This document shows, piece by piece, positions 1 through 64,000 of a DNA stretch of 64,000 nucleotides (position 1 is the stretch's first letter; every line of letters starts with the position of its first letter). The translations under genes were made by a program, and so were the position numbers. This stretch comes from Symbiodinium sp. CCMP2592 (Eukaryota > Sar > Dinophyceae > Suessiales > Symbiodiniaceae). Under the pieces are notes generated by a model, which saw nothing but the letters and a program-made list of their open reading frames with translations, was not told the origin of the DNA and made no database searches. The DNA lies in assembly GCA_905221615.1 (NCBI GenBank), contig CAJNDT010000001.1, forward strand, positions 1,200,653-1,264,652, given 5' to 3'.

Positions 1-1581
1 AAGCAACAAGAAGAAGAAGCGGCAAAAGAGGGAGGAAACGGAGCCTGGTCCCGCAAGCTCTGCTGAACCTTGGATGAAGTTGAAGATAGAGCCGGTCGGG
101 TGTCACAACTTGCAATACTTATTTCTATGTTTATCCAGCTGAGGATGCAGCAGCTGGTCTTCCTGCGGGTGGTCATGATGATCAGGCCGCAAATTTCAGT
201 GAATCATGATTTCTATTTTTGTGTGATCGAATCTGTCCTGTCCAGGCTACTATCTCGACTGAAGACAGCCAGCCTTTCTACGCCCGGGGTGTCTCCGCAG
301 AGGAACAGAAGGTGCAAGAGGTCTTGGAGGTACATGATGAGTGGAGTGATATCCATGTGCATGTTGCATGAGCATAGCTGTGATTCGATGAGTGGTTTCG
401 AATTCTGCGATCCCTGGAGGATAACGACCGGATCCCCTTGCCGAATATCCCGTGGTCTTTGTTGAGGCCTGCGCGAGATTCTGGTGATGCTTTGGTGAAA
501 GATGTGGAAAAGCAGCTTGGCCCTTTGAACCCCGAGCTCCTGAAGGCTGTCTTGCAACCTGAGAGGGGGTATGATCTCTGCAATCATGCTGCGATTTTCT
601 TTTGGGTGATTTAAACGAATATTAATTACACTTGATCCAGGTCCAGCGAACGCTGAGGAAGAATATAAGGGAAAATGAAGATGATGATGATGATGGTGCT
701 GAGAAGGAAGACAAGCCCAAGCGGGGCAAAGCTAAGCCCAAAGGAAAGGCCAAGGCGTCCAAGAAGGCCAAGGCTAAGCCAAAATCAAAAAGCAAGCCAG
801 AGTGCGAGATTGAGCGCAGCAAAGATGATGATGTCCTGAGTGATGCCATGGAGTTGGAAAAGGAGGAGGAGTGCGAGCAGGAGAAGCTGAAAAGGGAAGA
901 GGAGGATGCCGATGGGAAAAAGGTGAAGAAGGCAAAAGGCAAAAGGATTAGAAGCAAAGCCAAGCAGGCCACCAAGGATGATGATCAGGAGGATAAGCCG
1001 GCCAAGCCTGTGAAGCGACGGCTGGACTTCGATGCAGAGCCGGAGGGAAGCGCATGCGCCGAAGATGGGGCCCAGGTGCATGAAGTGTGTCTTGATGTAG
1101 ATGTGAGAAATGGTAGTATAGTAGATGGCACCGCTCTGCAGGCCCACCTTTGGGAGAGTTTGGACGAAGCTGCCCAGCCGGAGGAGACACCGGTGCAAGA
1201 AACAAGAAAGAAAAAGAAAAAAACCAAGAAAGCCAAGGCAGCAGAGAAGAAAAAGGAGAATAAGAAGCATGCAACCCCGGACAAGGAGAAGCCAGCTCCG
1301 CAAAGCGACCATGAGGATGAGGCCAGGGCCTTGAACATACCATATATCGTATATATTATTATAGCATGATCTTATTATCACAACCATATATATATATCTA
1401 TATAATTAGCAAATGTGATACATATATATATATATATATATATGCATGGGCACATACACACATGTAAGCATACGTGCACATACCCCAGGGTTGAACACAT
1501 AGAATTATATAACTATATAAATAGTTATAATATTATTACAAGCTTTCGCTGCTGTTCTGTTTCTCTCTCTCTCTCTCCGTC

Positions 1582-1616
<35 letters not shown>

Positions 1617-1641
1617 GTCACTCAGTCACTTTCTCTCTCTC

Positions 1642-1707
<66 letters not shown>

Positions 1708-2738
1708 ACTCCCTCTCTCAGTGGTCGTGAGCTCCTGATTTATTATCCAAGACCCTTGCGAGGAGGCAAAGACACCGCCGCCACTGGCAGTGCCGGCGCA
1801 CTGCTACCGGCAGACCGGATGGACGCCGCATCTGAGCAGGCCCAAAGCCAAAGCTAGAAAGAACAAGCCGGTTTACGACGACAACAACCCCAAGCCTCAG
1901 TGGAAAGTCAAGGCAGACGTGTGCTTCTGAGCTTGTGCAAACTGTGCCTGTTCAGTGCATGTCTTGCAGAAGGAAGTCGAATTCAACTAAGGAGGCAAAA
2001 GAGGTTTCGCTCAGAGACCTTCGACAGCTTCGGATCCTTGACACCTCGATGCAGATGCCTATGGATTGCAAGGAAATATCGCGACTAGCCGGAATTGCGA
2101 CACAAACCTCACGCACACAGAGACACACGATGTCTATATATCTCTCATTAGCCACGGTTTCACCCGAGGTCCTTTACCCTTGCCCCGGGCCCCAGAGTGC
2201 TCGAGAATGATGATGGCCTGGGCATCAGCACGATCGGCGTGTTGCACCTTGGCTGTGTTGGTCAACCATGTCTCCGATCGGTGAGAGCATCATTACTCGA
2301 TATTGGCCCAGGTTAAATGGAGCCTTCTACGTGTCTCCTGTTACGAAGCAAAGATTGCAAGACGTGAACAAGTACCGAAAAGATGGTGAAGAAATTGAGG
2401 CAGGTTGTACCCAATAACTGGTGATAAGTATTTATTGGTAACCCTAATTAATTCTAAACCCCCCTGAACCCTTAAACCAAATAGTTATATTTTCATAGTC
2501 ACAGATAATGAATTCCAGGCCAACAAAAAGTTTGGTGTGCACATCTCCTGGGAGAAGGGCAACCTAGGTGATGCGCAGGAGAAGTATCCCGGCTGCAGGT
2601 AGGGTGAATAGCATGTTCCTGATGAAACCTATGACCGAATGATTCATGACTGCTACTATCATTCAGGTATCGCTTGGCCAAGAAAGTTGCAGGATGGCTT
2701 CGGGCATACTGGCCTTTGCCGACGGCGAAGCGTGGCAA
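1..2738 (+). CDS. Gene X1, 5' part: lysine-rich multi-exon protein (partial)
   Basis: Not recognised by name. Likely exons are about 2-94, 139-199, 246-329, 393-568, 641-1320, 1763-1918, 1956-2090, 2240-2403, 2505-2598 and 2667-2738. The last three join in consistent phase (donors at 2404, 2599 and 2739; acceptors at 2504 and 2666), which is good evidence for a real gene. The 641-1320 exon is very rich in Lys, Ala and Glu/Asp (KAKPK-type runs), suggesting a disordered, probably nuclear, nucleic-acid-associating segment. The 1763-1918 exon is exactly 52 codons and reads from EAKTPPPLAV to WKVKAD. The 2505-2738 exons encode a basic, Trp-containing stretch with GVHISWEKGNLGD and AGWLRAYWPLPTAKRGK. 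The start codon lies outside the window. It is probably the N-terminal half of the gene ending at 6144, because its position matches the lysine-rich exon of X2, but no continuous splice path through 2.74-4.59 kb could be established; it could be a separate gene. Confidence 0.6.
1558..1705. repeat. (CT)n microsatellite inside an X1 intron
   Basis: About 150 bp of nearly pure CT dinucleotides with a few interruptions, between the lysine-rich exon and the exon at 1763. The open frame running through it (VSLSLSLS) is a product of the repeat. Confidence 0.95.
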
Positions 2739-2739
2739 G

Positions 2740-4179
2740 TGACCCGCACATGGACAGTTTTAAACTTATCCATAGTGCACACGAGCTCGCTGTGTTTGTT
2801 TCCTATATTCTATTTAAATATGTATTCACATAATGATGCCTAATTAATTAATCCTCCACAATTTACTTGCTTGCTACTTGGGGACCCGACACAGCGGGCT
2901 ACTTCGACCCTGTTTAATTTGAGAGTTCTGGGGGAGAGCGAATCTTGCAGTACTCGCGAGATGTGAAAGGTTCGAGGATCGGATCTCGAGACTTTAGCAT
3001 TGGTTGTGTGCTGGCATGTGTCATCGTAGCTTCTGAAGTTTGGGCCCAGTGTGAATGCATTATGAAGACTACACGTGTACATGAGTACTTGTGCAGAAGA
3101 CCTGCCATCGGACCCCGTTCCCAATTTCGAAATCCAAATTCGCCATGTTTCCGTGGCAGCGCAATCCGCTGGCCCTGTCAGCAACCGCCTCTGCTCTCCT
3201 TATACTGATGGGGGCACACGATGCTTTGTGCAGGGCTCAGGTTCCGAATTAGAAAACCATGTGATCAGGAGAATGTCGTGTTAAATTCGCTTCCAATTTC
3301 AGGATACACGTGGCTGATTATGTGGCTCAGAATTCTCCGCCTCTCATGAGCTCTCGAGTCCTACTCTCAGGTTCCTCTTGGGTCTGTCCCAGCCATGTCC
3401 CAATTCACCCCACTGCCCAGGACAACAGCCACTACGACATGTTCTCTGGGTCTCGCAACATGCAGCGGCAGTATTGTGCCGTGGCTGCAATGTAGTTAGC
3501 ATAGTACAGGGAAAAGCATATGATGTGTATGTACCGCTGAGGCTTGGCTGGGCTACGCAGGCCACTCATCAAGCAAATTATGGTTGTGCATGTGCATGCG
3601 TGCATATATCTGTGTAGTCGTTTTAAAGAATTATAAGAAGAATATTAATTATATTATATATATTGATATATTATATATATTATGTACACATATATGCTAT
3701 CAGAAGATATATATATATACATATATATATATGACTATGAGGAGGGCTGGGGCTTGAGGGGGGAGGGGTCGGTACGCATTGGTAAACCAGAGGCCTCCCA
3801 TGAATTGCCATGCACACCACTTGGCAGATTGCCCGCAAAGAACACCGACTCCCGAGCCCCAGCAGGCGCGATAGCCCATTGCCCTGCTGTCAAACACCCC
3901 GGGCCGGGTGCGTTGGCCAAAGGCTCGGTGTCGGCACAGTGTGACAAATGGCTGCCCCAGACCCGGCCAACAGTCTGTGCGTGATCGGTGAGAATGGCCC
4001 GCACCGAATTCGACGCTTGGTAAGGCATGTGGATGCTGAAAGGCCCTTGGTTGGTTCGTTTGTTTGGTGGGTTGCTTGGCTGCCTGGCTGGTTGTTTGCA
4101 ACCTTGGTTGGTTGGTCGGTGGGTTGGGTGTTGGGTGGTGGGTGGCTGGCTGGCGCTATACGTATATAAGTGTGTCTGT

Positions 4180-4210
<31 letters not shown>

Positions 4211-4588
4211 GCTACATACACATCTATATATATATATATATATACAATATGTATATACATATATATATAGAGAGTTATAATAATATAATAATAATAATAG
4301 CAATAATGCATGTCATGATGCTCCCATCAACTGCAACCAGCTTGCAATGCGGCTTTGGCTTTGGCTGTACTGCAGCCTCACAATGCAACTGAATGCAACT
4401 GAGTGATTACATGGACTATGTCAGTCGGCCAGAAGATGATCTCTGCAGCACGTTCCTTGCCTAATATAGGCGATTATCTCAAAGCCCCCAGGCCCAACAA
4501 TCCACACGACCCTGTATTGAAGTACTTCCGATGAACCCTGTGTGATCCGAGGACTGGGTTTATCTCAGCTGTTCGAGGAATTCTGAAA
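2740..4588. other. Mostly non-coding interval within X1
   Basis: No convincing long exon. A short coding-like stretch follows an acceptor at about 3420 and reads DNSHYDMFSGSRNMQRQY up to a stop near 3495. (TA)n tracts lie at 3655-3735 and 4180-4270, with a GGTT-rich stretch (TTGGTTGGT-like) at 4045-4155. I see nothing else that can be assigned. Confidence 0.4.
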
Positions 4589-5665
4589 TTGGAGCCCATG
4601 GGACTGGCAACCATAGGACTTCCGTGTGGGTCCTTTGTGTGGATGAATGCAGCAACCTCAAAGCGATCTGAAAGTTCTCCTTTCGGTAACGAAGAGCTCC
4701 CATATGTGGCGGCTGCCAACAAGCTCCTTGGATTATTTGGCTGGTTCAACATTCCTATGTGTGGGGGGCACAGCTCAGGATTTCAGCTCGGGTATGCTTG
4801 TTGATCCTCCTGCTGACGGCTCGACAATCCTTCTTCATGCTCGAGCAGCCTTCGTCCTCGAAACTCGAACATGTGCCCTACTTTCAGCACATGATGAACG
4901 TCGTGTCCGCGACTGTGAAAGTTCACAAGGTCTCCTTGTCAGGGGCTTATAGTTGGATTCCAAGTCTGTCGTTGGTCATGTGAATATCAGCCTCACATTT
5001 GGGATTCTGTCAATTGGACTGAGCTGGATGGGGACCTACGGCCACTTCAGTTGCAAGCGCTCACTGGCCTACAGCAACTTGTGCCTGGCTTTCAAGCTAT
5101 CTATAGGATACTTGCAAGGCTGCTCATAAAAAACCAGCGGCTGCTGAGGCATTTCATTCCCAGTTTGGCCAAAAGACTTTCGATGGTGCGCCGGCGACGT
5201 TTGGGGCTTTCCTCGGATGGGGTTGTCACACGCAGGAAGGTTGGAGGAAAAACTGCTGTGCTGCGTGGCTACAATTAATTCTAGGGTTTTCGGAGTCATC
5301 ATTATATATATATATATATGATCAGTTGTCCTTCAATGTGAGGACTGGTGACAAGAAACTCAAGAGCACGCAGGAGTACCCGCAAAGATTTTGCAGAAAG
5401 GTATTCAAGTTGCACATGAAGTCTCGTGATGCTTGGTTGCGCAATTCATGTATGTACTGGGAACGTGAATCGAGAACCAATCGTACAGTGAACCTGCTAA
5501 GGACCGAAATGCGAGGCTCATTAAGCAGAAGATGACTGCGGGGTTGCTGAAACTTGCAAAGCAAGAAAAGGCTACTCGGCTGTGAATAGCACCCCACACC
5601 CAAATGCGACAGTTCAACCAAAGGCCCAAAGATTATACAAGGTGTCATGCTAGTTTTCTCTTATT

Positions 5666-5702
<37 letters not shown>

Positions 5703-6144
5703 TATATAGATATAGTACAATATTTGTTCAATAATAATATAATAGTAAACATATGAATATATATATATATATACATATATTTGATCTAAGATTCTGGTCG
5801 ATCATTATATATTATATACTTAAAGTCAAAACCCAGGGGACCCGTAACCCGAAGGCTTGAAACTGCAAACCCGAACCATCCGATCCTCTCCCTTGGCTCT
5901 TCGGCTTGGGGTTTGTGGTTGGGGCTTGGATTTGGAAAGTATTATGGGCTCCGTGCTTCGAAGATAGGGCTTCTGGGTCTGAGGCTTTGGACTAATATAA
6001 TATTGTAATTTATATTCATGGGTTCCTACTTGTGCCCAGGTTGCACCGCCATTGGATTGGCAGCACGCAGCCGTGGAAGATCTGATGCAGTTCCTCAGAG
6101 CTGAACAAGCAGCTGGGAATTACGAACCGTTATTGCCTCTGTGA
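4589..6144 (+). CDS. Gene X1, 3' part: paralogue of X2 (dinoflagellate family of unknown function)
   Basis: Exons at about 4589-4780, 4795-4920, 5023-5100, 5322-5400, 5480-5581 and 6040-6144; the stop is TGA at 6142-6144. The order of motifs matches X2: a C-x-S-F-x3-N-x2-T-S-x-R-S segment followed by G-N-x3-P-x-V-x2-A-N (near 4630-4735), then MLEQPSSSKLEHVPYFQHM (near 4835-4890), then WMGTYGHFSCK (near 5025), then EYPQRF (near 5380), then a basic stretch ARLIKQKM, and a last exon with EDLMQFLRAEQ. The EQP motif and the order of blocks agree with what I remember of a large Symbiodinium family, some members of which begin with an F-x-E-F-x-A-G-x-G segment like the SAM-binding loop of DNA cytosine methyltransferases. 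That segment was not found in X1. Function is unknown. Confidence 0.6.
5660..6030. repeat. AT-rich intron with (TA)n tracts
   Basis: (TA)n at 5668-5710 and 5755-5780 and general AT richness, lying between the exon ending at 5581 and the last X1 exon. A small additional exon could be hidden here, because the phases of the flanking exons do not join directly. Confidence 0.7.
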
Positions 6145-6345
6145 TTATTATTAGGTTGCATATGTCTGTGCTGTGAATCTTTGCAGCTTGCAGCCAAGAA
6201 CCACCCACAATATTCAGGTGTATATTTCAACAGAGACGGCCCAATTCGGTTCGAAACCCAATTAATTGAAAGCCTGCGCTGTGTAGATGCACACACACAG
6301 ACACCCTGAGACTTCTGGTGCAAGGCCTCCAATTCACTCTAGAGT

Positions 6346-6440
6346 GACTGCGGCAGCATCCAATGGAAAAGTCTCAGCTGCTATCAAGGCTCCGCCGCAG
6401 GCCGCCACAGATCCAGCAGTTCCAATATATCCTTGGATCA
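6346..6440 (+). other. Unassigned coding-like stretch between X1 and Y1
   Basis: Open and codon-like, reading VTAAASNGKVSAAIKAPP and onward, ending at a TAG near 6443. It has no start codon, lies after the X1 stop, and could be a first exon of Y1, a relic, or chance. Low confidence. Confidence 0.25.
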
Positions 6441-6567
6441 CGTAGGAGTAGTCTGCAGGGTCGGTCTCTGTGGGAGGGTCCGTAGGGCTACTGGATGGGC
6501 AATGTATTTGAAACTGCTACAATCAAGTGATCATTTCAAAGCGTTTTTAGTTGATCTTGGGATGAAG

Positions 6568-6695
6568 GGGGTAGCGTGACTTTCGCGTGACTTTGGCGTG
6601 ACTCTTGCGTGACTCTCCGTAACTATAGTATACCAATAGTATTAGAGGAGCGTGACTCTCGCGTGACTCTAGCGTGACTCTGGCGTGACTCTCGG
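6568..6695. repeat. GCGTGACTCT minisatellite between X1 and Y1
   Basis: At least eight copies of an 11-12-bp unit (GCGTGACTCT plus one or two variable bases) in two clusters separated by about 30 bp of AT-richer sequence. It lies in the 700-bp interval upstream of Y1. A repeated short motif upstream of a gene could be a binding-site array, but nothing else supports that. Confidence 0.75.
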
Positions 6696-6859
6696 GGTAG
6701 GATCTGATCTGCTCCGGAAATCCACGTGTGGACAATGCTGCATGACAGTTCTCCTTCGTGTTCAAGCCATGGGCCCTCTCGTGATTGCATGGGTCTGAGC
6801 ATAATCTGTATCCCTGCCCCTACCATCTAGGCTACTTATGTATGTACAACACTTCGAAG

Positions 6860-8383
6860 ATGTCATCATCCATGGCCATGAATCCCAAGTCTATGCCTAC
6901 CGCTGACCGAGTGCACTGCTTGCTTTCTGCTTGTGAAGAACTGAAGAAGAGGGCTTTAAAAGGGACGGACTTGGAGGAGGAAAAGCCTGCAGAAGATCCC
7001 GAGCCAGCAAAGGATGCAGATGCAGCCCCCAAGAGCAAGCCAAAGCCAGTGAAGTGTGAAGCTGCAACCCCGAAACCACGTTTGTGCAAGCAGGAATACC
7101 GGAGCCCTGGGATTAGCAAAGCTGGAGTTGCTGATGTTCAGGAGGAGACGGCTCCCCCAGAGGCTACTTTGCCACCTACTTTGCCAACCAGCCCCATGGC
7201 CGAATCAATGCAGACCACCCCCAGCAGCCACCGAAAGCGCAAGCGCAGGGCAAGCAAGACTCCCAAGAAAACACCAGAAGCGGAGCCAGCCACTCCCAAA
7301 GACAAAGCAGCAGCAGAAGAGCCCAGTAGCAGGACTCCCAAAGCAGCACCAGAAGAGCCAAGCCGCAGGACTCCCAAAGCCAAGCAACCAGAAGAGCCAA
7401 GCCACAGGACTCCCAAAGCCAAGGCAGCAGAAGAGCCAAGCAGCAAGACTCCCAAGCAGAAGGTAGCAGAAGAGAAGCACACCGGGACTCCCAAAGAGAA
7501 TGCAGCAGAAGAGAAGCACACCGGGACTCCGAAACAGAAGAAGGCAGCAGAAGAGAAGCACACCGGGACTCCCAAAGAGAATGCAGCAGAAGAGAAGCAC
7601 ACCGGGACTCCGAAACAGAAGAAGGCAGCAGAAGAGAAGCACGGCGAGACCCCCAAGTCAACAACTCCTTGCAGTGGGAAGCGACGCAGAAGCGGATCCC
7701 CAGTCTCTCAGGCCTTTCTTTTTGTTGAAGCCATGTGCATCATCATTGTATAATTATATATATATATGACCATGTGCAGGGCCCAGCGTCCTCTTCGAAG
7801 CCGAAGAATTGGCTCCAAAGATCGGACACGGTGCCTTGGATGGCCACAATTATAGGTTATAAGGGTTTAAGGATTATTATCTTATAATTATAAGGGTTCA
7901 TAATTATAATTAGGGTTTATACAGTTTATAATATATAGGGTTTATAGTTGAGTCCTTGGGTTTAAGATTTATATTCTTAAGCTTATATGGGGTTAAGGAT
8001 TTGGGTTGATAATGGGTAGGGTTTAGGGTTCATGCAGTCCTAGGTAATTGAAATTAGGGTTTATAGCGTTCTTAAGGGTGAAGGGTTTATAAGGGCGCAG
8101 CCCGGAGCGAGTCAGCTGTCCTGGCGTGACGTTGCAAGCCAGTGGCTTTAAAGGGTTTAGAATAAGGGCTTGTTATAGGGTTGGGGGTTGAGTCCTTGGG
8201 TTTAAGGTTTATAGGGTTCATAATACGGCTCATAAGGGTTTAGGGCTTTATAACTGAGGATTCAATTATAGGGTTTAGGCTTGCGTACTATATACGCATA
8301 CATTCACACACACACAAACACACACACGCACGTGTATACCCATTATATATATGTATATATATATATATACGAATGTATATATA

Positions 8384-8419
<36 letters not shown>

Positions 8420-11400
8420 GTCATAATAACATATGACGTATTTAGATGTTACCTATCTACATATTTGTGTAATCATTATATCGTATATAAGAACAAACTT
8501 CAGACATACATACATGCATATACGTACACGTATATACCCTGAGGGATACACGCACATACAGTGTACATGTACATACATGAACACGTATACATAAACCTAT
8601 ACATATTATATATATAGGTATAGATATAGATATTATATACATGTATATATACATACATACATGCGTACACATATACACATGTACACACATACATGTACAT
8701 GCATGCATGCACAGACATACACACACACACGTAGATGCATACATACACATATACATACACGTATATACACACATGCATATACATACATAATATTTGATCC
8801 AAGCCCCTGCATAGGCCAACTCCATCGGCGCATGGTCAGTCAACAGCAGCGCCACCTGGACCAGTGATCGCAGCTACAGTGATGAGTGGGGCTGGGATTG
8901 GGATCAACCTAGCAACTCGTGGTCCTCGTGGTCCTACAATAGGGACTGGGGCTCTCGAGGATCCGGCTGGTCTTGGAGCTCTTGGGGAAATCCCTCAAAT
9001 GAAGCGAAGCCTAAGCCTGAAGATGCCGAAGCCAGCAGAGTTCAAAGTATCTTGCAACGTGGTCATACCGTGGACCAACTATCCATGGAAGAGCTGCAGT
9101 TGATTGTCAAACATGTGGATGCCGAGCAGCAGAAGAAAAAGGCAGGCGGCACGGCAGCTGCAGAGAATCCTGAGGCAGGTTGGTCCATGTGCAATACATA
9201 CTATACAGATTACGCGTATACGACTATATCCCTGTGTTCCAATATACTTGGCTAATTATATTGGCTGCTTAGTGTGTCCTTTATAAACTGTTGTAACTTC
9301 TGCTGCTGTACACAGGCAGCCGGGAAGAAAACAAATGAGAAGAAGCAAGATGAACAACATGAGGCGCAGGATGAGAAGCAGGAGGATGCAAAGGAGGAGG
9401 TAGAGGAGCAGGAGAAGGTGCCGGAGACGAAAGAGGAAAGGCGGAAGCGCTTGCATGCGAGGAACATGCGTTTTTACAGGTCGTTCGACTCTCCGAACTG
9501 TCCGAAAGAGATCAAGAAGCTCTCAAATAAAGCAAAAGGTGATAGCAGCAAGCGCAGCTTTCTTTTCGAGAGCTGGTTGACATCGGAAGAGTGCTGGATG
9601 AAGTCTTCGCTTCTTAAAAGACTGAGATCCAAGAACAGCAACGCCAAGCGTGGCCTTCGCCGATGGTTGACCAAGGCTGAAATGGAAGCCAAGTGGGGAA
9701 CAGAAGTTGCAGAAGCAATGATCGAATCGAAGGAGGCGGACGAGGAAAGGTCCCTCACTGAGATCCGGCCGCATCCGGAATTGCCGCATCGGGAGGACGG
9801 ATCATTTTGTAATGATCTGGGACACTCATGCAAGTTATTAGTAAACGATCACTCGATGTTCCATTTTCCTTTTACCCGTGCAGGACCTCAAACAATATCT
9901 TTGCTTGTGGGACTCGAGCGAAGAAGATGTGGATATGGAAGAGCTGGAATGCGTCTTCGAAGCCGGCCCAGAAGATTCGAGCTCCAGCGACTCGGATGAT
10001 TCGCGGCCCAAAAAGAAAAAGAAGGACAAGAAGAAGAAGGAGAAGAAAGCCAAGAAGGCAAAGAAGGACAAAGGCACCCCAAGCCCCAAAAAGCCCAAGG
10101 CAAAAGCCAAAGCGAAGGCCAAAGGAAAGGCGAAGGCGCAAGACAAGGTGGGGCAAGTAATTATGATGAAGGTTTTGGTTTCCTAGGAATATAGCGAGCC
10201 TTAAGCAGAATTTCGACGCTGTAGGTGCCGTATAGGGTTTGTAGGGTCTTGTCGGGCCCTAATTAATAAGCCCTACACCGTACTGCCGACGGAGGGCCTG
10301 CTATTATAGGGTCCCTTTAAGAGCTCCTTTAAGGGATCTATAGGGCTTATATTATATGGTTTAAAGAGAATTAGATGTAAGGGTTTATTCGGCATTAGGG
10401 CTTAGGTTTCTGGGGGCTTAGGGCTTTATATAGGGTTCGGTAGGAAGGAGAGAGGTAGTTCTGGGATTCCTTTAAAAGGGTTTCGGGTTTTATAAAGGGT
10501 TCAGGCTTTAAGATTTAGGATTTCTGGTTTGGGGTTTCGATTTAAGCAATAAGCGGAGGAAAGCTGCAGATGGGGAGTCCATATCTCGGCTCCTCACTCT
10601 GAATTACTCTACACCATAAAACTTCCCTAAACTCCATAAACCCTTCTACCCCTAAGACCTTTGTGCAGGAGATGACTGCGGAGGAGGAAGAGAAGAAAAA
10701 CCTGGCCGAGCGGAAGAACAAAGCCAACAAGGCTTCAATGCAATAGTGGCTATATAATTAGAGGTTCTTCTTAAGAATACTGTCGCACCTCTTTCTCTCT
10801 ATATGTATATACACATATATATATATATATATATATATTTATTTAATTATAATTCGCTTTTATATTTATGTATATATATATACATATATAGCGATCGCGA
10901 TAGAACCCTCTGCTACTGCAGGCCATAATCAAAGCCACGGAGAAGATCAAGATCGCAAGCAATCTTCGCAAAGAAGCGTCTGTGGAGGGGATGCCGCTTG
11001 CGTGGCATGAGAACCTAACTAGAATGTACGATCAGCAGCTCATGATGAAGCTAGTGTGCGAATATACTCATGACCAGGGGCGACCACTTGCTCGAAGCAA
11101 TGAAGCGCGATGTCGATGCAGAGGACCCGACGACAGCAATCAATGAGTATTATAGGGCCCCTTTTCACGGTGTGGTTTAATCTGGGGTTTCGTGCTCAAG
11201 TTGGCTTCACAGGGTGGTAGCTGTATAGGCTCGTCTTGGTTCAACTGTATATATGCAATCGTGCCACAGCCAGGCGAACAAAGTGCAAGCAGCCCGCGCA
11301 GTGCTGCAGACGGGTGTGGACACCGACGAGGCTGCCCATATGCCTGAGATACAGGGTGAGTGCTGCCCCGGGTTTAGCAATGATCTGTGTATTTGGATCA

Positions 11401-12024
11401 GGTATGAGGTCTCGCAGGTTGTTGTTGTACGTTTGTTGCTATATCATCCATATAATCATGTGTGCAGTGGTCTTGTATCGGCCATCCTCATCAGAATGAA
11501 TGTAACATCCCGAAACCCAGTATGCAATAGTATGCTTAAGGCTTTCATCCCCATGTCGCATGCAATTTCAGCAAATTAAAGCTTGAAGACTGTCATGCAG
11601 CCCTCGGCAGACACTTGCAATATTAAAGGGCAATTCTTCTAAGATTGAATTATATAGTTATAAGGGGTTTTAAAAATCCATAATTAGATGGCTTGTTGAG
11701 GAGGTATATAAATCAATAGCATAGGTCCACATTGCCTCTGCTATCCCCGAAGTCGGAATTTACCTGAACACCCCGTAGTTGCAACGGCAGACAACCTCCA
11801 AAATCCTTTATTTCCCAAGTTCTGCCCGGGCAGCTTCAAGCACACACACACACAACAAAAATGCCCGGAACCAAGCCGCCATACTTAAATGTCAGGTCGA
11901 TGATGACTCGATCGCAGCTTTGACGGCTGCTTGTGAACAGTTTGATGCGATCCACAAGAGTTTCCAGAGCCGCTCTAAGACCCCGAAAGGGGAGGCGAAG
12001 AGCAAAGCCGGCAAGAAGAAGTGA
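6860..12024 (+). CDS. Gene Y1: multi-exon basic protein with TPK repeats and a W/S-rich segment
   Basis: Not recognised by name. Start chosen at ATG 6860 (MSSSMAMNPK). Exons are about 6860-7702, 7780-7830, 8840-9174, 9316-9795, 9884-10147, 10669-10735, 10922-11055, 11078-11155, 11274-11355 and 11896-12024; the stop is TGA at 12022-12024. Exon 1 carries tandem EEKHTGTPK and SRTPKA units, like the S/TPKK DNA-binding motifs of histone H1 tails. The 8840 exon has a WSSWSYNRDWGS-type Trp/Ser segment followed by SMEELQLIVKHVDAEQQ. The 9316 exon encodes a folded-looking domain (MRFYRSFDSPNCP, then SWLTSEECW, then LTKAEMEAKWG). The 9884 exon ends in a long KKKKKDKKKKEKK basic tail and the last exon is helical. 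Phase 0 is kept across 9795/9884 only with a GA donor and across 9174/9316 only with a GC donor. Probably nuclear; the domain order resembles Y2. The 7830-8840 join is unresolved. Confidence 0.72.
7499..7660 (+). repeat. 81-bp in-frame tandem repeat in Y1 exon 1
   Basis: An 81-bp (27-codon) unit beginning at 7499 recurs at 7580 essentially unchanged at nucleotide level. Each unit holds two AEEKHTGTPK-type half units. The near identity indicates recent expansion by slippage or unequal exchange while keeping the frame. Confidence 0.85.
7855..8285. repeat. Degenerate telomere-like (GGGTTTA)n tract in a Y1 intron
   Basis: Many scattered GGGTTTA/GGGTTAT variants, with short unrelated insertions, in TTTAGGG orientation on the + strand. 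No exon was identified within it. Confidence 0.8.
8286..8795. repeat. (CA)n, (TA)n and (CATA)n compound microsatellite in a Y1 intron
   Basis: Compound simple repeat of ACACAC, TATATA, CTCTCT and ACATACATG-type units. All reading frames across it are low-complexity ([11 protein letters not shown]) and are not proteins. Confidence 0.95.
10195..10545. repeat. Degenerate telomere-like and CTTTAAGGG-type repeats in a Y1 intron
   Basis: The intron after the 10147 donor contains GGGTTTA variants and a short stretch of the CCTTTAAGGGATCTATAGGG minisatellite family, which forms a tandem array at 34.36 kb. Confidence 0.7.
10800..10890. repeat. (TA)n intronic tract in Y1
   Basis: TATATA-rich intron sequence directly before the acceptor at 10921. 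Confidence 0.9.
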
Positions 12025-12328
12025 GCCATATTATGCATCATACGTGGTTCATCGTTCTAGATGCATGCTGCATTCGTTGATCCGATATATAAGCTGTTGT
12101 AGTGTATTATGCTCAAGATGCTTGCTGGCGGATTTTGATCACGATCGAAGCCAGGGATAACCTTGGCCTTTTGCACATGTGCCTGCAACAAACTGGCCCC
12201 CGAAAGTTATATCTAGCTGCCGTGTAGGCCCGTGTAGGCGTAGACGTGGCCATGACTATATTAGCGAGGCTCCAGGCTGCATGTGTCATTTGGTTCTGGC
12301 CTTCTACATTAATTATATAATATTCTTA

Positions 12329-48429: not shown

Positions 48430-48465
<36 letters not shown>

Positions 48466-51113: not shown

Positions 51114-51177
<64 letters not shown>

Positions 51178-51869
51178 CATATTTGTTTCCATATATTTTT
51201 CGTTTAATTAGTATACGTATCGGGAGAGAAAGACCTTCCTAGCTACCTGCTACCTCCCAAATACCCGCCTAACCTGCTGACCGACCTACCTAGCTGTCTT
51301 GGTACCTCTACACACTTATCTGCCTGCCTACTTGGTAGCTTTCAAACCAAAACCAAGCTCGAAATTCTTGGCTGCTACGAGAAACAAACTTAGACAAGAC
51401 ATTTACAATCCCTGTATTTTTTTGCCCAAAATCCAACTAGCAGGTTCTCATGCTGACAGTGCTCTTCCTCGCCTGGAGCGACAATGTCAACTGCTTCCAG
51501 CAGGCCAGGCCTTGAGCAAGGGATTCACGATGCTTTCCCCCTTTCCGCAGGTATATGGCTTCGTGGAATTCTATGCTGGTGTGGGGGCTTGCAGTCTGTG
51601 CTCACGACTTGCTGGGGTTCCCACGGCTTCCTTAGACATTCTGTACCACAAACCAAAGCGCGGGAAACAAAACTATATGGACATTCTTACGGATGCTGGA
51701 ATGGCGTCTTTCGGCTGCAGCTAGTGAAGCACGAAGGGGAGGCATCTCCACAGATGAAATACAGGTCTCATTCAGTGCAGTTATAGGCATATATGTATAT
51801 GTGTGTATGTAGTACTATAGTAGTTATTATAGGGCTTAGGGTAAATAATTGTGTTTATATATATGTATA

Positions 51870-51906
<37 letters not shown>

Positions 51907-53996
51907 GGTGCTAACTTTTTGCGGTGTTTGAAAGCTTTGCATATGTATATATACATATATATGCACCCAAACACGAACGTTTGTGTATATATATATATAT
52001 ATATGTGTATGTGATTCATGTATGTATGCATGTAGGCATGTACGTATGTATGTATGCCTGGCTGTGTGTATATACGTATGTGTATATGTATGTATGTGTA
52101 TATATATATGTAGGGATAATTTTAATGGGTTGGATATCTTAGCAAATTCGGTGCATGTATCATATTTTGCTGTATGAAAGGCTTTTATATACACATGTTT
52201 TAACTTTAGACAGACCGAGTGTTTGTAGCCACAATGTATATATATATATATATAAGCACATTCATATGTATGTGTTCACAGTCATGAACATGTGTGTATG
52301 TACATGTCTATCAGTCACACACACACGTGCATACGCGCTATATATATATATATATATATGCATTTAGAGGGTCGTGACTGCACATATATATATATATATA
52401 TATATGTATATATGTTTCGCTTTGTATGCATAATCATACACATATATGTTTATAAACGTATGTATGCATATACATATATATATATATATATGTATATATA
52501 TGCACAGATTGATACACACATATGGTTGTATATACACGTCACCTGAGACATACATGAGGCCAGTTCGGACATTCTGCAGAGTTACAGGTAAGCCAGACCT
52601 CTCGAAACAAGGATTGTGGATACCGCTACATCTCGCCTCCTTGCTTGGCTGTCTAAACTTCTTAGAAGCCTGAATACTGCAAGTACCCTCAACCCTATAA
52701 AGTTTTTGTACACCTATGATGAATTGCCTATGAAGCCCATAAGTCTCACAAATTGACGATCCTACAAACCCTAGAAACCCAGAAGACCAAGCATTACTCA
52801 AGATGCTTTTGACTCCTATAGGCAAGCTCCAACCACACCCACCCCGTAGTGCAAACTCAGCAGCCGGCCATCTGAGGTTGGCTGTCGTGACCCTGATGAA
52901 CGCCAAGACCAATGCTTTGGTATGGTTGGGGCAGAAATGCTCCAGCTTCTGCTTTGTAAACAAAGGAACATCAGGGAGGAGCTGTGCTTGTGGGCTTGGG
53001 AATGTTCAGTTTCCTTCGGTTCGAGAGGCGAATATGATGATGAGTCGGATTCTGGGCTCCGAGGCACATTCTATGTTGTTAGAGTCTTATATAGGAAACT
53101 GTACACTTACCCAAACCCACGACATTTCTGTACAATCCCGACGCAACCTCTTCGGGCCCCTGTATACACCACCCTCTATATAGACTATTGACTATTAATT
53201 TCAAGCTTCTATGTATAAAAGGCTCCCGATCTAATTATACAATGAACAGCATCATCTGCTGGTCTCATGGACCAGCAGCCACTCTATCGCTGTTCTTTGC
53301 TGTGATTTAGACATGCAACTAGCTGGCCAAGGACGTGCTTGCTCATATATCTAGCAGAAGCACTGGGGCTTGTGTGGGTGTTGGAGCAGCCGAAGCAGTC
53401 TGCTGCTGAATACCACCCCCGGTTTCGCGAGATGCGGCATCATCTGTCTGCCTTGTACTTAGTTGTGTTATGACTTCTATAGTCCATGTTGGTCTTCTAG
53501 AAGCCCTCTTCTGTCCTTGGACGCATGTCACCCAGATTTGGCGAGCCACATTCTGGATGGCTCACTATGACAGTGCCACGCCGAAGGGCCATGCGATCTA
53601 CAGCAACAGCCCTGCTATCAGCATGTTTGATTTGGGGAAACTTCGGCGCAAAGCTCGTGGGCTCCCGGGATCTCGAACCACTTATCGCTACCGCAACCAG
53701 CATGGGCAGCGTCGTTTCACGGGGACTTCGCAGCTAAAACAAACAGAGATGCTTGGTGGCTTAATGCTGTGGTTTCTACCAGTCTTGCTGTTGTGATGAT
53801 GTCCTGAGCAACTATACTTTTTGCAATTTGCATGCATGAATACTGTATATACCTTTAGCAGTCGATGTCTTCGAACAAAAACGATTCGCTTCAAGGCCAC
53901 AATGACAAACCCAGAACCCGGACACTTTACGCATAAGGTTCCAGCGATCTCAGAAGCAATTCCGCGGAGAGCCTTTAAACCCACCCATATGTATAC

Positions 53997-54032
<36 letters not shown>

Positions 54033-54034
54033 AC

Positions 54035-54085
<51 letters not shown>

Positions 54086-54298
54086 TGTATAGGTATATAT
54101 ATACATACATATATATAACTATATACATACATATATATATATAGATATACAATCCCTTTACATATGTGTATATATATATACATATATATATATATACAGG
54201 CAATTGCATATATTCATATAGCCTGTATATATAACTATATACATACATATATATATATATATATATATTTATACCCTATATGTATACATATACATATA

Positions 54299-54330
<32 letters not shown>

Positions 54331-54602
54331 CAAACCATTCACCCAGCTATCTATTCTGACTCAGGAACTACCCCGCGAAATTCGGCCTCCGTCTGCTGAG
54401 ACTCCGGCCTCGTCTGAGAGCTGCTCTGACTGCCAGGGCAACCCCACCTGTGGATCCGGATCCTAAGGTGGTGTTTGCTTCTTGCTCGTTTGCAGATGTT
54501 TGGGCTGATGCTGGTATGCCAGAGTGTCTGCGGTATCTCAAGGGCAGCCGATATCTTCAAATCCCTCCAGAATGGAGGGCTTTGCTTCCGGATTCGCTCT
54601 GA
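46204..54602 (+). CDS. Gene X2: lysine-rich, multi-exon paralogue of X1 with a methyltransferase-like loop
   Basis: Start ATG 46204 ([20 protein letters not shown]); exon 1 ends at 46309 at a GA donor, and exon 2 (46549-47960, about 470 aa) continues in phase. Exon 2 is acidic and Lys/Ala-rich (KAKAKAKAE), has EAPASEAPA repeats, and ends in a folded segment [13 protein letters not shown]. Later exons: 49428-49536 ([17 protein letters not shown]), about 49580-50110 and 50184-50435 (uncertain), 51551-51705 ([19 protein letters not shown], then [17 protein letters not shown]), about 52835-53085 ([15 protein letters not shown] then [12 protein letters not shown]), 53355-53455 ([17 protein letters not shown]), 53486-53768 ([18 protein letters not shown]) and 54365-54602 (NYPAKFG to LLPDSL, stop TGA 54600-54602). 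The F-x-E-F-x-A-G-x-G loop is like motif I of DNA cytosine-5 methyltransferases, but no catalytic Pro-Cys motif was identified, so function is unknown. The basic N-terminal region suggests nuclear location. Confidence 0.68.
46320..46530. repeat. (TA)n/(CATA)n intron 1 of X2
   Basis: TATATATGTATACATA-type simple repeat fills the first intron. The frames crossing it (YIYICMYTY) are artefacts. Confidence 0.9.
48060..48600. repeat. (TATC)n, (TA)n and (TGTATG)n intronic microsatellites in X2
   Basis: Compound simple repeats in the intron following 47960. No coding content. Confidence 0.95.
48600..49425. other. X2 intron, no exon recognised
   Basis: Mixed sequence with (TA)n at 49115-49160 and 49350-49375. 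Nothing convincing as coding. Confidence 0.5.
50184..50435 (+). other. Possible X2 exon ([18 protein letters not shown])
   Basis: An 83-codon open stretch with coding-like composition, ending in TAG. It could be an X2 exon that leaves the frame by splicing before the stop, or a remnant. No motif recognised. Confidence 0.35.
50440..51550. other. X2 intron with GTAGG tandem and (CT)n
   Basis: A GGGTAGGGTAGGGTAG-type short tandem at 50970-51025 and (CT)n at 51117-51167. The 1299-1547 part of this stretch in local terms (51299-51547) is open but not clearly coding. Confidence 0.6.
51785..52545. repeat. (TA)n/(TG)n microsatellite-rich X2 intron
   Basis: Long compound simple repeats from 51790 to 52530. 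Tyr/Ile/Met-rich frames are artefacts. Confidence 0.95.
53990..54335. repeat. (TA)n/(CATA)n microsatellite in the last X2 intron
   Basis: Almost pure TATA/CATA text between the exon ending about 53768 and the acceptor at 54364. Confidence 0.95.
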
Positions 54603-54824
54603 AACAACCACGACTGGGCCTGACCTCGCTCCCCTATATAGCATGATAGTGGTAGACAGTACACCAATAAGCTAGTGCATTCCGTTTCTGAATACTCTTT
54701 TGTGTATATAAAAGTTGTTCCCCTGTAAATATTTTCGGCTCTTAACAATCTAATTCATCAACAACAGTTTTCAGCCTGTTTGGGTAAATCTATGTCGACA
54801 CACAGAGAACCCGCAAATTACCCG

Positions 54825-54940
54825 CAAACACGCGCAAAATTACCCGCAAAAAAAAACCCAGGCGCAAATTACCCGCAAAGGGAGCGCAAATGACCCACAA
54901 AAGGGCGCAAGGATATTGCGCAAAACCCCCGCAAAATCAC
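54825..54940. repeat. Degenerate ATTACCCGCAAA tandem repeat, locus 2
   Basis: Units AAATTACCCGCAAA, GGCGCAAATTACCCGC and AAATGACCCACAAA in tandem, starting about 220 bp after the X2 stop and before Y2. Confidence 0.8.
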
Positions 54941-55000: not shown

Positions 55001-55794
55001 AAGTGTGGCCCGATGATGCGTATTCCGATAATTCGCAAAGGTTTGCGGCAAATGCAGGTATGTTGGTGTGCCAACCATGCACTTTTGCCACTATTGGAAG
55101 CTAGTTATTGCTCTGTAGCCATGAGCACCAGGAGCAATTCGGATGGGACAGACTCGCTCTGCTGCGTAAAGTGGAGTCATGTTGAAATCTCAATCATGCA
55201 AGCTACAGTGATGTCATAGCAGCGCTTGTGAAACACGCTCTGAATCCGCAACCATCTTTGCTTAATGATGACAGTGAGACTTTGTGTGGTTCTACAAGTT
55301 TGGAACTCTGCTGCTGCTCAACGGAGCAATGGCCTACAGTCGTATGTCCTCGATGCCTAGTGCTGACAGATCCACGCCCACTGCTGCTAAATCAACGCCT
55401 GCCCGGAAGCCCGTGCACTTGGAGTCCAGGCAGTGGAGCTGCTCTGAGCTTGCAGAAGGGCAAGCCGCCCTGAAGAAGGCCAAACTCGAGAAGCTGGACA
55501 CTTCTGATGCTCTCGAAGCAGACTTGGAGGCAGGATGACGGCTTCTTTTCACGGGGTATTTGTCATCTATACGAGGTTCTCCTGATGGGTGCACACACAT
55601 ACTTCGTACGAGGCTATGGAACGGGAGTATGCTGAAATATCTGCGCAACTCGATGATCCCGAATCCGGCGAGAACAGTCAGCAGACTGACGAGGTGGGGG
55701 TGTCACTAGAATCCCATAGCTACATATCTATCTATCTATCTATCTATCTACATAAATTAGCAAAGCGTCCAAACCAAGTATGATTTAAAGTGCG

Positions 55795-55828
<34 letters not shown>

Positions 55829-56261
55829 TATATATAGATGTATATATATCGCACTTTAAATCATACTTGGTTTGGACGCTTTGCTAACTTATGTTTCTAG
55901 GTTGCTATGAACTTAAAGAACGAGTGTGTGTGTGTGTGTGTGCTTGTCTGTGAGTGTATTTGTTGGTGTACATATGTAGGTCTGTATGTGTGTATAAGTA
56001 TATAAATGTATAAATATAGATACGTGTACATATATATATATATATGTTTGTGTGCATGTATGCCTGTCGTAAGCCTGTATGTATGTATGTAGGTATGTAG
56101 GTATGTAGGTGAGTAGGTATATGCATGTTTGTAGGTAGGTATGTAGGTATGTGTGCATGCATGTATGTGTGTATGTATATCTAGATATGAGAGTTTCAAT
56201 GCATGCATGCATCATGCACAGATGCATGTATGTAATTATGCGTGCATACATGCAACCATGC

Positions 56262-56320
<59 letters not shown>

Positions 56321-56354
56321 GAAGGGTGCTATTTGAATACGCTCCTTCCCCTTC

Positions 56355-56420
<66 letters not shown>

Positions 56421-56990
56421 CAGAGACAGAGCGAGAGAGAGGGAGAGGGAGAGGGAGAGGGAGAGAGAGAGAGCAGCTAATTAAACATAATACAACCGTC
56501 AACGGGGGGGGGAGGGTAGGGAGTGGGGGGGGGTGGGGGAGGGGAGAGGGGGTTTAAAAATCTCCCGGTTTGGGGGCCGCCAAACCGGGAATTTGTTCCC
56601 CGTTGTCCGCGCCCATTTTCGCCAGGCCCCAAACCCGGCTGATGCTCATGATGCTGGCTTGTGTGCGGGCCCATGGCCCGGCTGATGCTCATGATGTGGG
56701 CGCCTGGGGCCGTGTTACAGTTACATGCATACAAATATGGGTGTATAGAAGTATATGTAAGATATATATATATATACAAATACCCACACACCTACCCGCT
56801 AAGCGGTCACTACACGCCTACCTACCTACCCACAGACCTGCAGACCGACCACCAACCTACCTACCCGCTTGCCTGCCTACCTACCTCCCTGGTAGCCAAG
56901 CAGCCCGCCTATGTACATGGATACTTATGCAAACCTGTGCATACACACATGAACACATGCTCTTTTTATCGCTCTCCCTCTCACTCCCTG

Positions 56991-57028
<38 letters not shown>

Positions 57029-59629
57029 CAATCGCTCTCTGTCTCTCTATCTCGCTCCATCTGTCCTGTTGGTGCTCTTGCTTTTTTGGTGCTTTGCGAT
57101 TATAAGGACACAATCCCAGTGCCTGAGCTGAATGTACACTGTCGGTCTGAACCCAAACCTTCTCTCGCCCCTCCCGCAAGACCCAGGCGACCGCGGAGGA
57201 GATCGCAAGCCGTCGCAGAGCTTCTGTGCCCATTCCTGCATAAACCCCAAAAACCCTAAACCCTAAACCCCAAAAGCCCTAAACCCTAAACCCCAAAAAC
57301 CCTAAACCCTAAACCCCAAAAAATCTAAACCCTAAACCCCAAAAACCTTAAACCCTAAACCCCAAAAACCCTAAACCCTAAACCCCAAAAACCCTAAACC
57401 CTAAGAGGAATTGTAAGTCTCGGAAGGGTTTCATTGTATTCATGCATGGCAACAAATCATGGGCTCAGTGTATCTCAGGTGAAGCATGAGTCGAAGACTG
57501 CTGCAGCAGCCACATGCGCAAGGCCTTTGGCTACGCCTTCCCGTGCCATGTCGATGCCACCCCCACCGGCACCAGCTACTCCTTCTAGTACGCCTGGATC
57601 CAAGCCCACGCCATCTAGCCGAGCCAAGATAGCCCCGAGCAAGGCTGCCCCTCCTAGCAGAGCCACAACTGAGCCCATTCATGCTGATCCTGAAGAATCA
57701 TTGACGAAGCCTCCTACTCAGAGCTCATCGGTGAGACCTACAAATGCGAGCCCGTCGGTGAGACCTACAAGTGCGAGCCCGTCGATGAGACCTACAAGTG
57801 CCAGCCCATCCGTGAGACCTGCAACTCCGAGCTCGTCAGTGAGACCTACCACGGAGGCTAGTCGACCTTCCACGCCTTCTGGAACCCCTAGCCCGCCACC
57901 TTCTGCAGTGGCCCCTCCTCCCCCCTCCCAGTCTCACGGCGACGACTCGGATGAGGAGGTGGAGCTTGTCTTGTGTTCGGGTTCATAACATGCGTGCAAG
58001 TTCACACACTCTGGTCAGATGCCACACACATATACAAATTGTGTGTGTGTGTGAGCGCGCCTGAGGCTATCACCGAGGCCGCAATGTACTACCGCATGTA
58101 CCGTGTCTTCCAGCAGAAAAAGAATGGCCAATACAAGGTTCCTCTAGAGGCGGTGGATCAATGGAGAAGGGGTGACAAAGCTGCCCTTATCGCCCAGTTC
58201 AAGGAGTGCGGGTACAAGCCTGATCCCCTACCTGTTTAGAGTGTTTGTTGCATCCCTTGTTCATCTTGCCCACATTTAGACAAAGTTGTTGCCTAAGGAA
58301 AAGTTCATCAACACCTTGAACATCAGTCGCGAGAAAGTGAAGCAGTTCCAGAACAAGGAGAAATGGGGATGGTTCACGAAGCAGCAGATGAAGGACAAAC
58401 TGAAGTGGAGCAAGCCCCAGCCTCAATCTCCCTGAAACCATCGGTTGAAGCCTTTCTGCGAAACAATAGCAAACCCATCCCGCTCCTCTGCTGTTGCAGG
58501 GGCTACATCCAGATGGTGGAGGCTGCCTGCAGGCAGAGTGGCGAAGTGAAGCCGAAGACCCAGAATGTTGCTAACAGCTAACGAATTCTCTTATCACAGA
58601 ATTATTGAACCGTCCTAGGTCTTATCGTGCTGCTAGTGTGTAAACTAAGGACCGATAAGTACGACAAGCGGATCGAGAAGTTTCACGTAGCCTACGAAGA
58701 GGAAGGCCATGTTCTGGATGAACAGACAGAGCGAGAACATCACAGCAGCTCGCAGCAGGCACCCGGGTTCTAGCATGACATGTCGACGAGTTTGTATGCC
58801 CAGAACAAATTATAACAGCAAAACATTAGATCGATGCTCACCCAGGTTGCCAATGCTCCTACGCTTTCGGGGAACTGGCACGACTTTGCTGCCTTCACCC
58901 GTGGTACTAGCGCAGCTGCAATTACAGATGCATCTGGAGCCCCAGGCACAGCCCCACCCGCTCCCGGAAATGCCTCCGGAGCTCCTCCCCCAGCTGCTGT
59001 GAACCTCAGCGCGCCGGCTGAGGAGATTGACCGTTGGTTTGGAGTTGAGTTGTTTACCAGTTGTCATGTAGGCTTCTACGCTAACCTACGCATATGGTTC
59101 CATGCTTGCAGGAGGTGCAGTTCCTCGAGAAGTGTGTGGGTGAAACATTGACAAAGTTGTCTAAAGCTTACGATCTGTTGGGGCGGGTGGACTGCTACGT
59201 GGATGCGGAGAACCCCAAAGCTCGTGCCAATGTGTGGCATGACTTGCATTTCAGAATGTCATACAATGAACAAAAAAAGTCTATTCCTGAAACAAAGTGA
59301 GTCTACATTGCCACCTACATTTACGCTACTATCTGATGCCAGGGCTGTCTCCAACTTGGAGGAGAAGATCAACTGCTTGAGTGCCGGGTATGACAAGCTT
59401 GTGGGCCTTAAGCTCGAGCTAGATTCGACAAAGGGTGCTGTGGCCACCGAGCTGCTTGTCTTTCATATGAAATACTTCATCATGACCCCAAAGCCGCAAA
59501 ACCGTAGCGCAACCATACTATCCGAATCCTATTAACCCAGAACTCCTCGCCAATCACATGTGGCCAAGGCTGCAGCAGAAGATTGATGCTGCCTGGAAGG
59601 AGGCGTCCATCGCGCAACTTAGCCCAGAG
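55001..59629 (+). CDS. Gene Y2: multi-exon protein, probable counterpart of Y1
   Basis: Not recognised by name. A first exon may lie at 55001-55054 (PDDAYSDNSQRFAANA); otherwise ATG 55329 (MAYSRMSSMPSADRS) opens the gene. Exons are about 55329-55530, 55612-55693, 57479-57980, 58066-58233, 58280-58413, 58500-58562, 58650-58772, 58846-59031, 59112-59258, 59343-59457 and 59579-59629. The joins 58233/58280 and 58413/58500 keep phase, the latter with a GC donor. The 57479 exon is Pro/Ser/Thr-rich with VRPTSASPS repeats. The 58066-58562 exons form a folded domain (MYYRMYRVFQQKKNG, then KEKFINTLNISREKV, then FTKQQMKDKLKWS), comparable in order and style to the Y1 exon at 9316. The C-terminal exons are helical (FLEKCVGETLTKLSKAYDLL and LEEKINCLSAGYDKL), likely coiled coils. 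The true 3' end was not found. Confidence 0.65.
55751..55893. mobile_element. 143-bp inverted repeat with (TA)n loop in a Y2 intron
   Basis: Left arm ATTAGCAAAGCGTCCAAACC and onward, and the right arm its reverse complement; about 48 bp per arm with one visible mismatch, around a (TA)n centre. Would fold into a stable hairpin in the intron RNA. MITE-like; no second copy seen in the window. Confidence 0.8.
55925..56260. repeat. (TG)n/(GTATGTAG)n microsatellite in a Y2 intron
   Basis: Simple repeats with TGTATGTAGG-type units. Confidence 0.95.
56263..56475. repeat. (GA)n microsatellite in a Y2 intron
   Basis: Two long GA blocks with a 45-bp interruption. A G-rich stretch follows at 56503-56550. 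Confidence 0.95.
56990..57055. repeat. (CT)n microsatellite in a Y2 intron
   Basis: CTCTCT tract with small interruptions. Confidence 0.9.
57246..57403. repeat. Telomere-derived higher-order repeat in a Y2 intron
   Basis: About seven units of roughly 22-23 bp, each CCCTAAACCCTAAACCCCAA plus A's. It is very regular and lies 75 bp before the acceptor of the 57479 exon. Confidence 0.93.
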
Positions 59630-59639
59630 GTCTATAGGA

Positions 59640-61100
59640 CGAAGCTATTTTTGTTCAGGGTCCTAGGTCAGGTCAGGTCGTTGGTTTACCAACTTCGGAA
59701 CTCTCGAGGTTTCGTATCGGTTGGGCAAGATGCGTGTCAGAAAGAGTAGGAAGTTTGTGGCTTTTGGTGTTAGTCTAATGATCTTGGCTTTGTTGGAGTT
59801 TACGAGGATTTAGGAATTGAGGAGATTTTGCAGTTGGGGTTTTAGGACTGAGGGTTCTTATGGCGCCCCACCATTCATGCCATGTGAAACTGTGCATGTA
59901 AGCGATTACCTCTTGTGTTGTCATGACTATACAGTCACATATATATATATATGCATAAGGGCATATATATATATATGACCCATGCACAGGGAGAAGGTTG
60001 TATAGGGTCTCTCTATATATATGTATGCACCGTATGAACATATATATATATATATATATACTCTTAGTATGATGCCCTGCACATATTCTCTAGTATGATG
60101 TCGTGCACATGTGAATGCTTCTACGCCTTTCGTTTCTTCTTCACCGTCGCCATCACCGTCATCATCAACACTATCATAATCTTTATCATCAGGGGGGTTA
60201 TCCAGTTCTTCTTCTTCCTCTTCATGAAGTCGTCATCATCACCATCACCGTCACTGCCAAGGTCAACGTCACCACCAACATCACCACCGCCATCAGCATC
60301 GCCCTCACAGTCACGACCACCGTCACCATCACCGTTACCATAATCTTCCTCATTGTCTTCTTCTTCCTCACCATACGACCATAATCGTCGCTGTCACTAC
60401 CACCATCAACACCGCCATCATCATCACCGTCACTGTCACGACCACCGTCCCCCTCACTGGCACTGTTTCCGCATCACCATCACCATCATCCTCCTTATCA
60501 TCATCACAGTCACCATCACCTCTGCAAATTAGCCGTTCCCCAATATAAACCTTAAAAACCTATTAAGCCCCACAATATGTACATGCATGCTTCGCTGTGC
60601 TTGCGTGTACCATGCTTATGCGGGTGGCCTCTCGGTGAAGTGTGCCTGATAAAGCTAAAACATATAAACATCTAAATATATATGTATAGATATATATGTG
60701 CTTATATATATATGTATATATATATATAGACACACAGGTACATATACAATAATGTGTTTGTAATATTTTGTGTTGTTACCAGTACACGCATGCTCCCCGT
60801 TCACAAACATGCAAACCGTAGAGTTATATATGCTCACCAAGACACAACAAAAGACATGTATATATCTCTGCCAACTTATACGTAGAACGTCATAGCAATC
60901 TTTCTCGTTTTTTATCTACATACCTATCTATTTTCCGATCTGTTTATATCCTATATCTCTCTATATATATATATATATATACATATGTATATACATACCT
61001 ACGAGTTCCAACTGTCATTCTACATATATATATATATGTGTATGCATACGCACACAACATGTTTATGCAAACCGAACATTTCCTGAAACAAATCTATGCC
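59640..61100. other. Intergenic Y2 to next gene, microsatellite-rich
   Basis: (TA)n at 59940-60060 and 60680-60735, a (CAY)n array at 60130-60530, and (TA)n at 60960-61040. No gene recognised. Confidence 0.6.
60130..60530. repeat. Degenerate (CAY/TCACC)n array of about 400 bp
   Basis: Repeated CATCACCGTCACC/CATCATCACC triplet text. Open frames are Ser/Pro or Ile/Thr/Val-rich artefacts. Confidence 0.9.
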
Positions 61101-62345: not shown

Positions 62346-63095
62346 GATAAGGTACTTTGTGGCTTTACCTGACTAGTTTGCGTGAGTGTATGAGGTTACC
62401 ACTTATACACTTACTAGAATGCTACTGTGGGCTCATCCTGTGCCCAAGTTCTTCTATGCAGAGCACGCATACTAGCAAATTCACGGAAACTGCTCGCCTA
62501 GCTACCCTATCTATCCATCTATTTGTGCTTATATAATGTATATACCTATATGCCGATATGTTTGAGATATTATCAAAAAGCTTGTACATGGACATACACA
62601 TACGAACCTCTGTTCAACTATATGTTGTAACCCACAACCTACCTACCTGGCTACTGCTGTCTCTCGAATCTACGTGTCTATCCATCCACCGACCTGCTGA
62701 GCTTTCGAGCTCCCTTGTATCTAGTTATGATCGATCTGTGTGTGTATATATATATATATATATGTCGGTCAAAAAAAGTACGTACGTGAAGATGTACAGG
62801 CATATGCACATGCATACCTACTGGTTCTGACCTACCCAAGTATTTCAGAGTTGTGTTGCAGGAATCCACAAGGCTGTGAAGTGTCAAAATTCGAACCTAG
62901 TGCACAACTCCACAACTTAGCCGAAAGTATATATATGTATAGGTGTATGTTTGCTGAAGTACAGCGCAGGGAAGGAACTGCAAGGTCACATGTGTGTAGA
63001 TCTATATACAGTGACTCTTCTAAGTGATGTGGCCGTCTTCGCGACTTCTGTCTTGATCATGAAACAACATAGCGCGGCGAATTGACTACTGTTGG
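62346..63095. other. Putative intron, no exon recognised
   Basis: Contains (TA)n at 62745-62765 and otherwise unremarkable sequence. Confidence 0.5.
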
Positions 63096-63101
63096 ATTCA
63101 G

Positions 63102-63580
63102 GCTGTCTACATCGAATCGCAGCGCTCGGCCAAGCTGCTGAGTGAGCTTTCTGAGAAGTTCGAATTATGTGACACTAGGGAAGACAAAGAGAAGTTGATT
63201 CTTTCGACTGGCTGCATGTCTGCTGTGTACCTTCCTACAAACAGCTGTACCCCTAGCGCAGGAACCGTGCTGCAGCACTGTAAGCGTAAAGCCCATCTGT
63301 TCCGATCCTCTATGGGTGCTGCCTTGTGCGTGTTTAAAATCGGGTTCACAAGCAACCCCATCCAGCGTTTTGTAAGCTATCGGATTGCACACTTTTCACA
63401 CATGTGTCTTCTGCATGTGACGGCATGTAAGAACACTGCGGCAATGCTCGAAGCAGCACTGATCGACGTGTTTTGGAATACTTCCGGCTGTCGCAATCAA
63501 AACCCTGGCGGGGAAGGGCCAGGCCATTTGCAGGCACAGCTTTTCTATGTGTACATGGTAGGTGCACGAGCGGATGTTGC
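63102..63580 (+). CDS. GIY-YIG-like (T5orf172-style) exon
   Basis: Exon opens after the acceptor at 63100-63101 (AVYIESQRSAKLLSEL) and stays in frame to about 63579. It contains VFKIGFTSNPIQRF, then MLEAALIDVF, then CRNQNPGGEGPG and FYVYMVGARAD. KIG-x-T-x2-P-x2-R followed by an E in a LEAALI helix is the layout of the GIY-YIG nuclease fold as seen in T5orf172-type domains: the Arg and Glu are the usual catalytic pair, while the N-terminal GIY strand is less clear (CVF). Whether it cleaves DNA is unknown. From memory, similar exons are multi-copy in dinoflagellates. It lies upstream of the last exon in the window and probably belongs to the same gene. Confidence 0.55.
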
Positions 63581-63654
63581 GGTTCCAATAGGAGGCTGAT
63601 GTCTACCGTTGTTCCGGAGCTTCGATCTGCTATAGGAACTTCGCAAGAGAAAAA

Positions 63655-63720
63655 AGCTGTTTCAGTGTGTGTGCATGCGTGTGCGTGTGTGTATGTCTGT
63701 GTGTGTGCGCGTGCAGTGCA
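63655..63720. repeat. (GT)n microsatellite
   Basis: TGTGTGCATGCGTGTGCGTG-type tract in the intron between the GIY-YIG-like exon and the last exon. Confidence 0.9.
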
Positions 63721-63842
63721 TCATGAGCGACTGAAGCAGTGTTTGCTTGAACATGTGTTTCTTTCGAAGTCGCCAAGGTGCCATGCGGCGACGTCATCTT
63801 GCACGCGAGAGCCTCCTCATCTTCTACATCCGTGGGAGTGAA

Positions 63843-64000
63843 GCAGCTGAGTAACATTCCACTGAGTCATTCCGAACAGGGTGTGCACAGAGTGCTTCAG
63901 GAGAATGGCCACACAGTCCCTGTCCCGATGCACTATGTAGACCTCCCCAGCCAAAAGGCTGTCCCTTACATCAAGTTTTCCAGCTGGGTGCAGTACCTGG
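63843..64000 (+). CDS. Partial exon running off the window (possible start of a Z-type gene)
   Basis: Open to the last base, reading LSNIPLSHSEQGVHRVLQ, then VPVPMHYVDLPSQKAVPYIK and SSWVQYL. The V-P-x-P-x3-V-x-L then P-Y-x-K-x-S-W pattern is one I associate, from memory, with the region just before the GDWKWH-type domain in relatives of Z1, but only about 53 residues are visible and they do not align firmly to Z1 itself. Confidence 0.5.

Follow-up and report, generated by a model that had tools for sequence, protein, structure and literature searches.

Two sets of three genes, X, Y and Z, lie in the same order on the plus strand of a 64,000-nucleotide stretch of Symbiodinium sp. CCMP2592 DNA (the window, C1:1200653-1264652 in an assembly of 1.098 Gb and 5,383 contigs), and this arrangement raises the question of whether such sets move as units. 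The original prediction regarded both as a large mobile element or a host cassette derived from one. According to our analysis, gene set 1 very probably lies inside a 21-kb DNA transposon, element 1, present as two almost identical copies at separate genome sites. In what follows, C1 and C4334 are contigs, and negative window positions lie to the left of the window start.

The whole element occupies C1:1196883-1217738 (window -3769 to 17086; 20,856 bp). Its second copy, at C4334:1698944-1730816, has flanks different from those on C1; comparison of the two copies shows 12 substitutions along with 12 indels, which range in size from 2 to 28 bp. The C4334 copy is also interrupted by a 10,996-bp long terminal repeat (LTR) element (C4334:1701441-1712436), which is absent from the C1 copy. 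This LTR element has two 177-bp LTRs that are identical to each other and shows a 5-bp GAGCC duplication. The termini of element 1 read CCCT...AGGG, its terminal inverted repeats match at 9 of 11 positions, and AACCGCC is found inside both ends (-3758, -3720 and 17022). Both copies show 3-bp target duplications: CTA at C1, the three bases right after 17086, and TAA at C4334. The same DNA is thus found at two places as a unit, each with its 3-bp duplication. Set 1 could also be a segmental duplication of host genes without transposition, with inverted ends and 3-bp repeats arising by chance. Just two copies were seen, and a 9/11 match is by itself not unusual for the region. However, inverted repeats at both borders, a duplication that is perfect in both copies with differing letters, and subterminal repeats inside both ends make this explanation highly improbable.

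Element 1 shares with CACTA/EnSpm transposons (CMCT group) the 3-bp target site duplication, found in 2/2 copies, and subterminal repeats, a defining feature of that group that AACCGCC matches here. It differs from them in its termini, CCC...GGG instead of CAC...GTG, in its length of 20.9 kb, and in carrying a methyltransferase-like gene. Moreover, Z1 matched no curated transposase profile (Pfam transposase models). KDZ elements (Zisupton, Dileera, Kyakuja) are likewise DNA transposons linked to DNA-modification genes, but passages in PMC12730594 give them target duplications of 7-8 bp, against the 3 bp of element 1. Element 1 carries its methyltransferase-like gene besides its likely mover protein, which would be Z. 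Z would then cut and join the element DNA, Y would bind the subterminal repeats and X would modify DNA.

C5-methyltransferases contain, in order, motifs I, IV (PC) and VI (ENV). The X genes appear to follow this order with EQP replacing ENV, and the domain common to X1, X2 and a further gene, X3, has an FxG-type loop, GxxCxSF and EQP. The best preserved domain is that of X3 (L021:1990-2670, minus strand, on C1 near window -27 kb), with FLEIFAGQG, GTPCSSF and VIEQP; those of X2 and X1 are similar but degraded. In X1, GLPCGSF (4616) and MLEQP (4837) can be recognised, while the motif-I-like DMFSGS (3436) is weak and the motif I region is barely visible (E 0.19). X3 has an in-frame stop between the two domain halves. 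No Pfam family was found for two X3 pieces or the X2 motif-I piece, and neither a single X3 piece nor profile A1 had a match in PDB; among the pieces searched, the X genes thus had no convincing relative in either database. Because of this lack of relatives, the X3 stop and the faded motif I of X1, we call the X genes methyltransferase-like, possibly decayed, and nothing beyond.

Is set 2 a copy of the same kind? X1 and X2 are paralogues, as had been claimed (alignment score 130, reached in 0/300 shuffles). The third gene of set 2, initially paired with Z1 by position only, is homologous to it, with the same order and strand as in set 1. These two homologies could mean that X, Y and Z have been kept together as a three-gene module within a single transposon family, set 2 being an older copy with decayed ends. 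Both Y genes consist of several exons and contain low-complexity stretches of basic or acidic character, and they share MP[TS]ADR and VDAE[DN]P in the same order. However, Y1/Y2 similarity is not significant (shuffles 26/300, 198/500 and 19/500; phmmer E 0.056), so the common architecture proposed for them stands as layout and short motifs, and the parallel between the two sets as homology of X and Z. In addition, a search for inverted repeats with a duplication, for which the ends of element 1 served as positive control, found no common ends for set 2, and the repeats described below bracket X2 alone. We consider this reading possible, though doubtful, and the proposal of a large mobile element very probably holds for set 1, with its terminal inverted repeats and 3-bp duplications.

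Alternatively, X genes may be mobile or multicopy on their own and mere neighbours or passengers of Y and Z, the order in set 2 being a coincidence in a unidirectional gene array. Unidirectional gene order is by itself weak evidence in dinoflagellates, as stated in a part of PMC11453091. X3 lies on the opposite strand, tblastn at E 0.01 showed nothing related to Y or Z in its vicinity, and TTACC[CT]GCAAA occurs six times in 154 kb, three times on either side of X2. Together with the Y1/Y2 result and the missing ends of set 2, these observations give an independent X about an even chance. The bracketing is suggestive of ends belonging to X2 itself, but the inverted-repeat and duplication search there gave 0 matches. 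Pairs of 9-mer clusters numbered four in the real sequence outside a tandem duplication (see below), two of them around X2, versus 1, 2 and 3 in locally shuffled sequence.

The GIY-YIG-like exon noticed earlier, which belongs to the third gene of set 2, keeps its weak profile match (Table 1), while its PDB matches are at chance level (E 1.1 and 1.2).

Table 1. Coordinates of the features discussed, in window positions
Feature	Position	Strand	Remarks
Element 1, in-window part	1..17086	+	Basis: second copy in different flanks
Left terminal inverted repeat of element 1	at -3769		CCCTGCACGTC
Right terminal inverted repeat of element 1	17076..17086	-	Minus strand reads CCCTACTCGTC
Right subterminal repeat of element 1, CGCAACCGCCTCACTTTTCATGTA	17019..17042	+	Partners near -3759 and -3723
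X1, approximate extent	384..6140	+	K/E-rich region 626-1330; eroded C5-methyltransferase-like domain
Y1, approximate extent, multi-exon	6860..12024	+	TPK-rich 39-bp repeat 7377-7655 (family D19); basic and acidic low-complexity exons
Z1 region	12948..16341	+	Originally 12941-16370; motif names read by eye
Repeat cluster TTACC[CT]GCAAA, three copies	43985..44043	+	Left of X2
X2, approximate extent, multi-exon	45579..54600	+	Methyltransferase-like motifs at 51554, GQKCSSF 52929, WVLEQP 53375
Repeat cluster TTACCCGCAAA, three copies	54818..54879	+	Right of X2
Y2, approximate extent, multi-exon	55278..59660	+	Only short motifs shared with Y1
GIY-YIG-like exon of third gene of set 2	63063..63561	+	Weak MUG113 match

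Several features of the neighbouring sequence were also observed. On C1, window -39900 to -14000 (L022, L021, L020) holds a tandem duplication of about 14.8 kb, which covers a large gene region on the minus strand and includes a 100-N assembly gap. GRVP/RQSA/KAECQ peptides recur often in this region, as though reading frames had received insertions of a short repeat. Between the two sets, a single 634-aa open reading frame (35423-37327, minus) matches TIR_2 and HET weakly, in both cases below the cut-off, and 19012-19301 holds two arrays of a TTCCAAAA-type 9-bp repeat that are inverted and face each other (95-nt arms, 91% complementary). A 1,179-aa open frame at C4334:1753742-1757278 resembles, by eye, a reverse transcriptase of the copia type bearing a long tail of charged residues.

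Mobile elements with DNA-modification genes have been described elsewhere. In the portions of PMC5890265 available, DNMT genes occur in Symbiodinium retrotransposons: SymbioLINE-Dnmt and SymbioDIRS-Dnmt3 carry a C5-methyltransferase gene, as element 1 carries a C5-methyltransferase-like one, but element 1 is a DNA transposon with terminal inverted repeats whose X has EQP for ENV. No reverse transcriptase was found among those element 1 frames, some of the total, that were scanned against Pfam. Excerpts of PMC12730594 report TET/JBP genes in fungal DNA transposons, EnSpm included, which place a base-modifying enzyme beside the transposase, a layout resembling that proposed for element 1; theirs is a dioxygenase, while element 1 has a C5-methyltransferase-like domain and a probable dinoflagellate host. 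The same portions of PMC5890265 note DNA transposons of marine viruses encoding a DNMT, so the combination has precedent. In the extracts seen of the open-licence PMC literature little was found on dinoflagellate DNA transposons, and none with a methyltransferase was among the matches listed.

For dinoflagellates, whose genomes are large and unusually modified, a 21-kb element whose ends are defined and whose two copies hardly differ provides exact boundaries for searching. Should X prove enzymatically active, genes for DNA modification would ride DNA transposons in the dinoflagellate lineage too, and the effect of such cargo on silencing would become testable.
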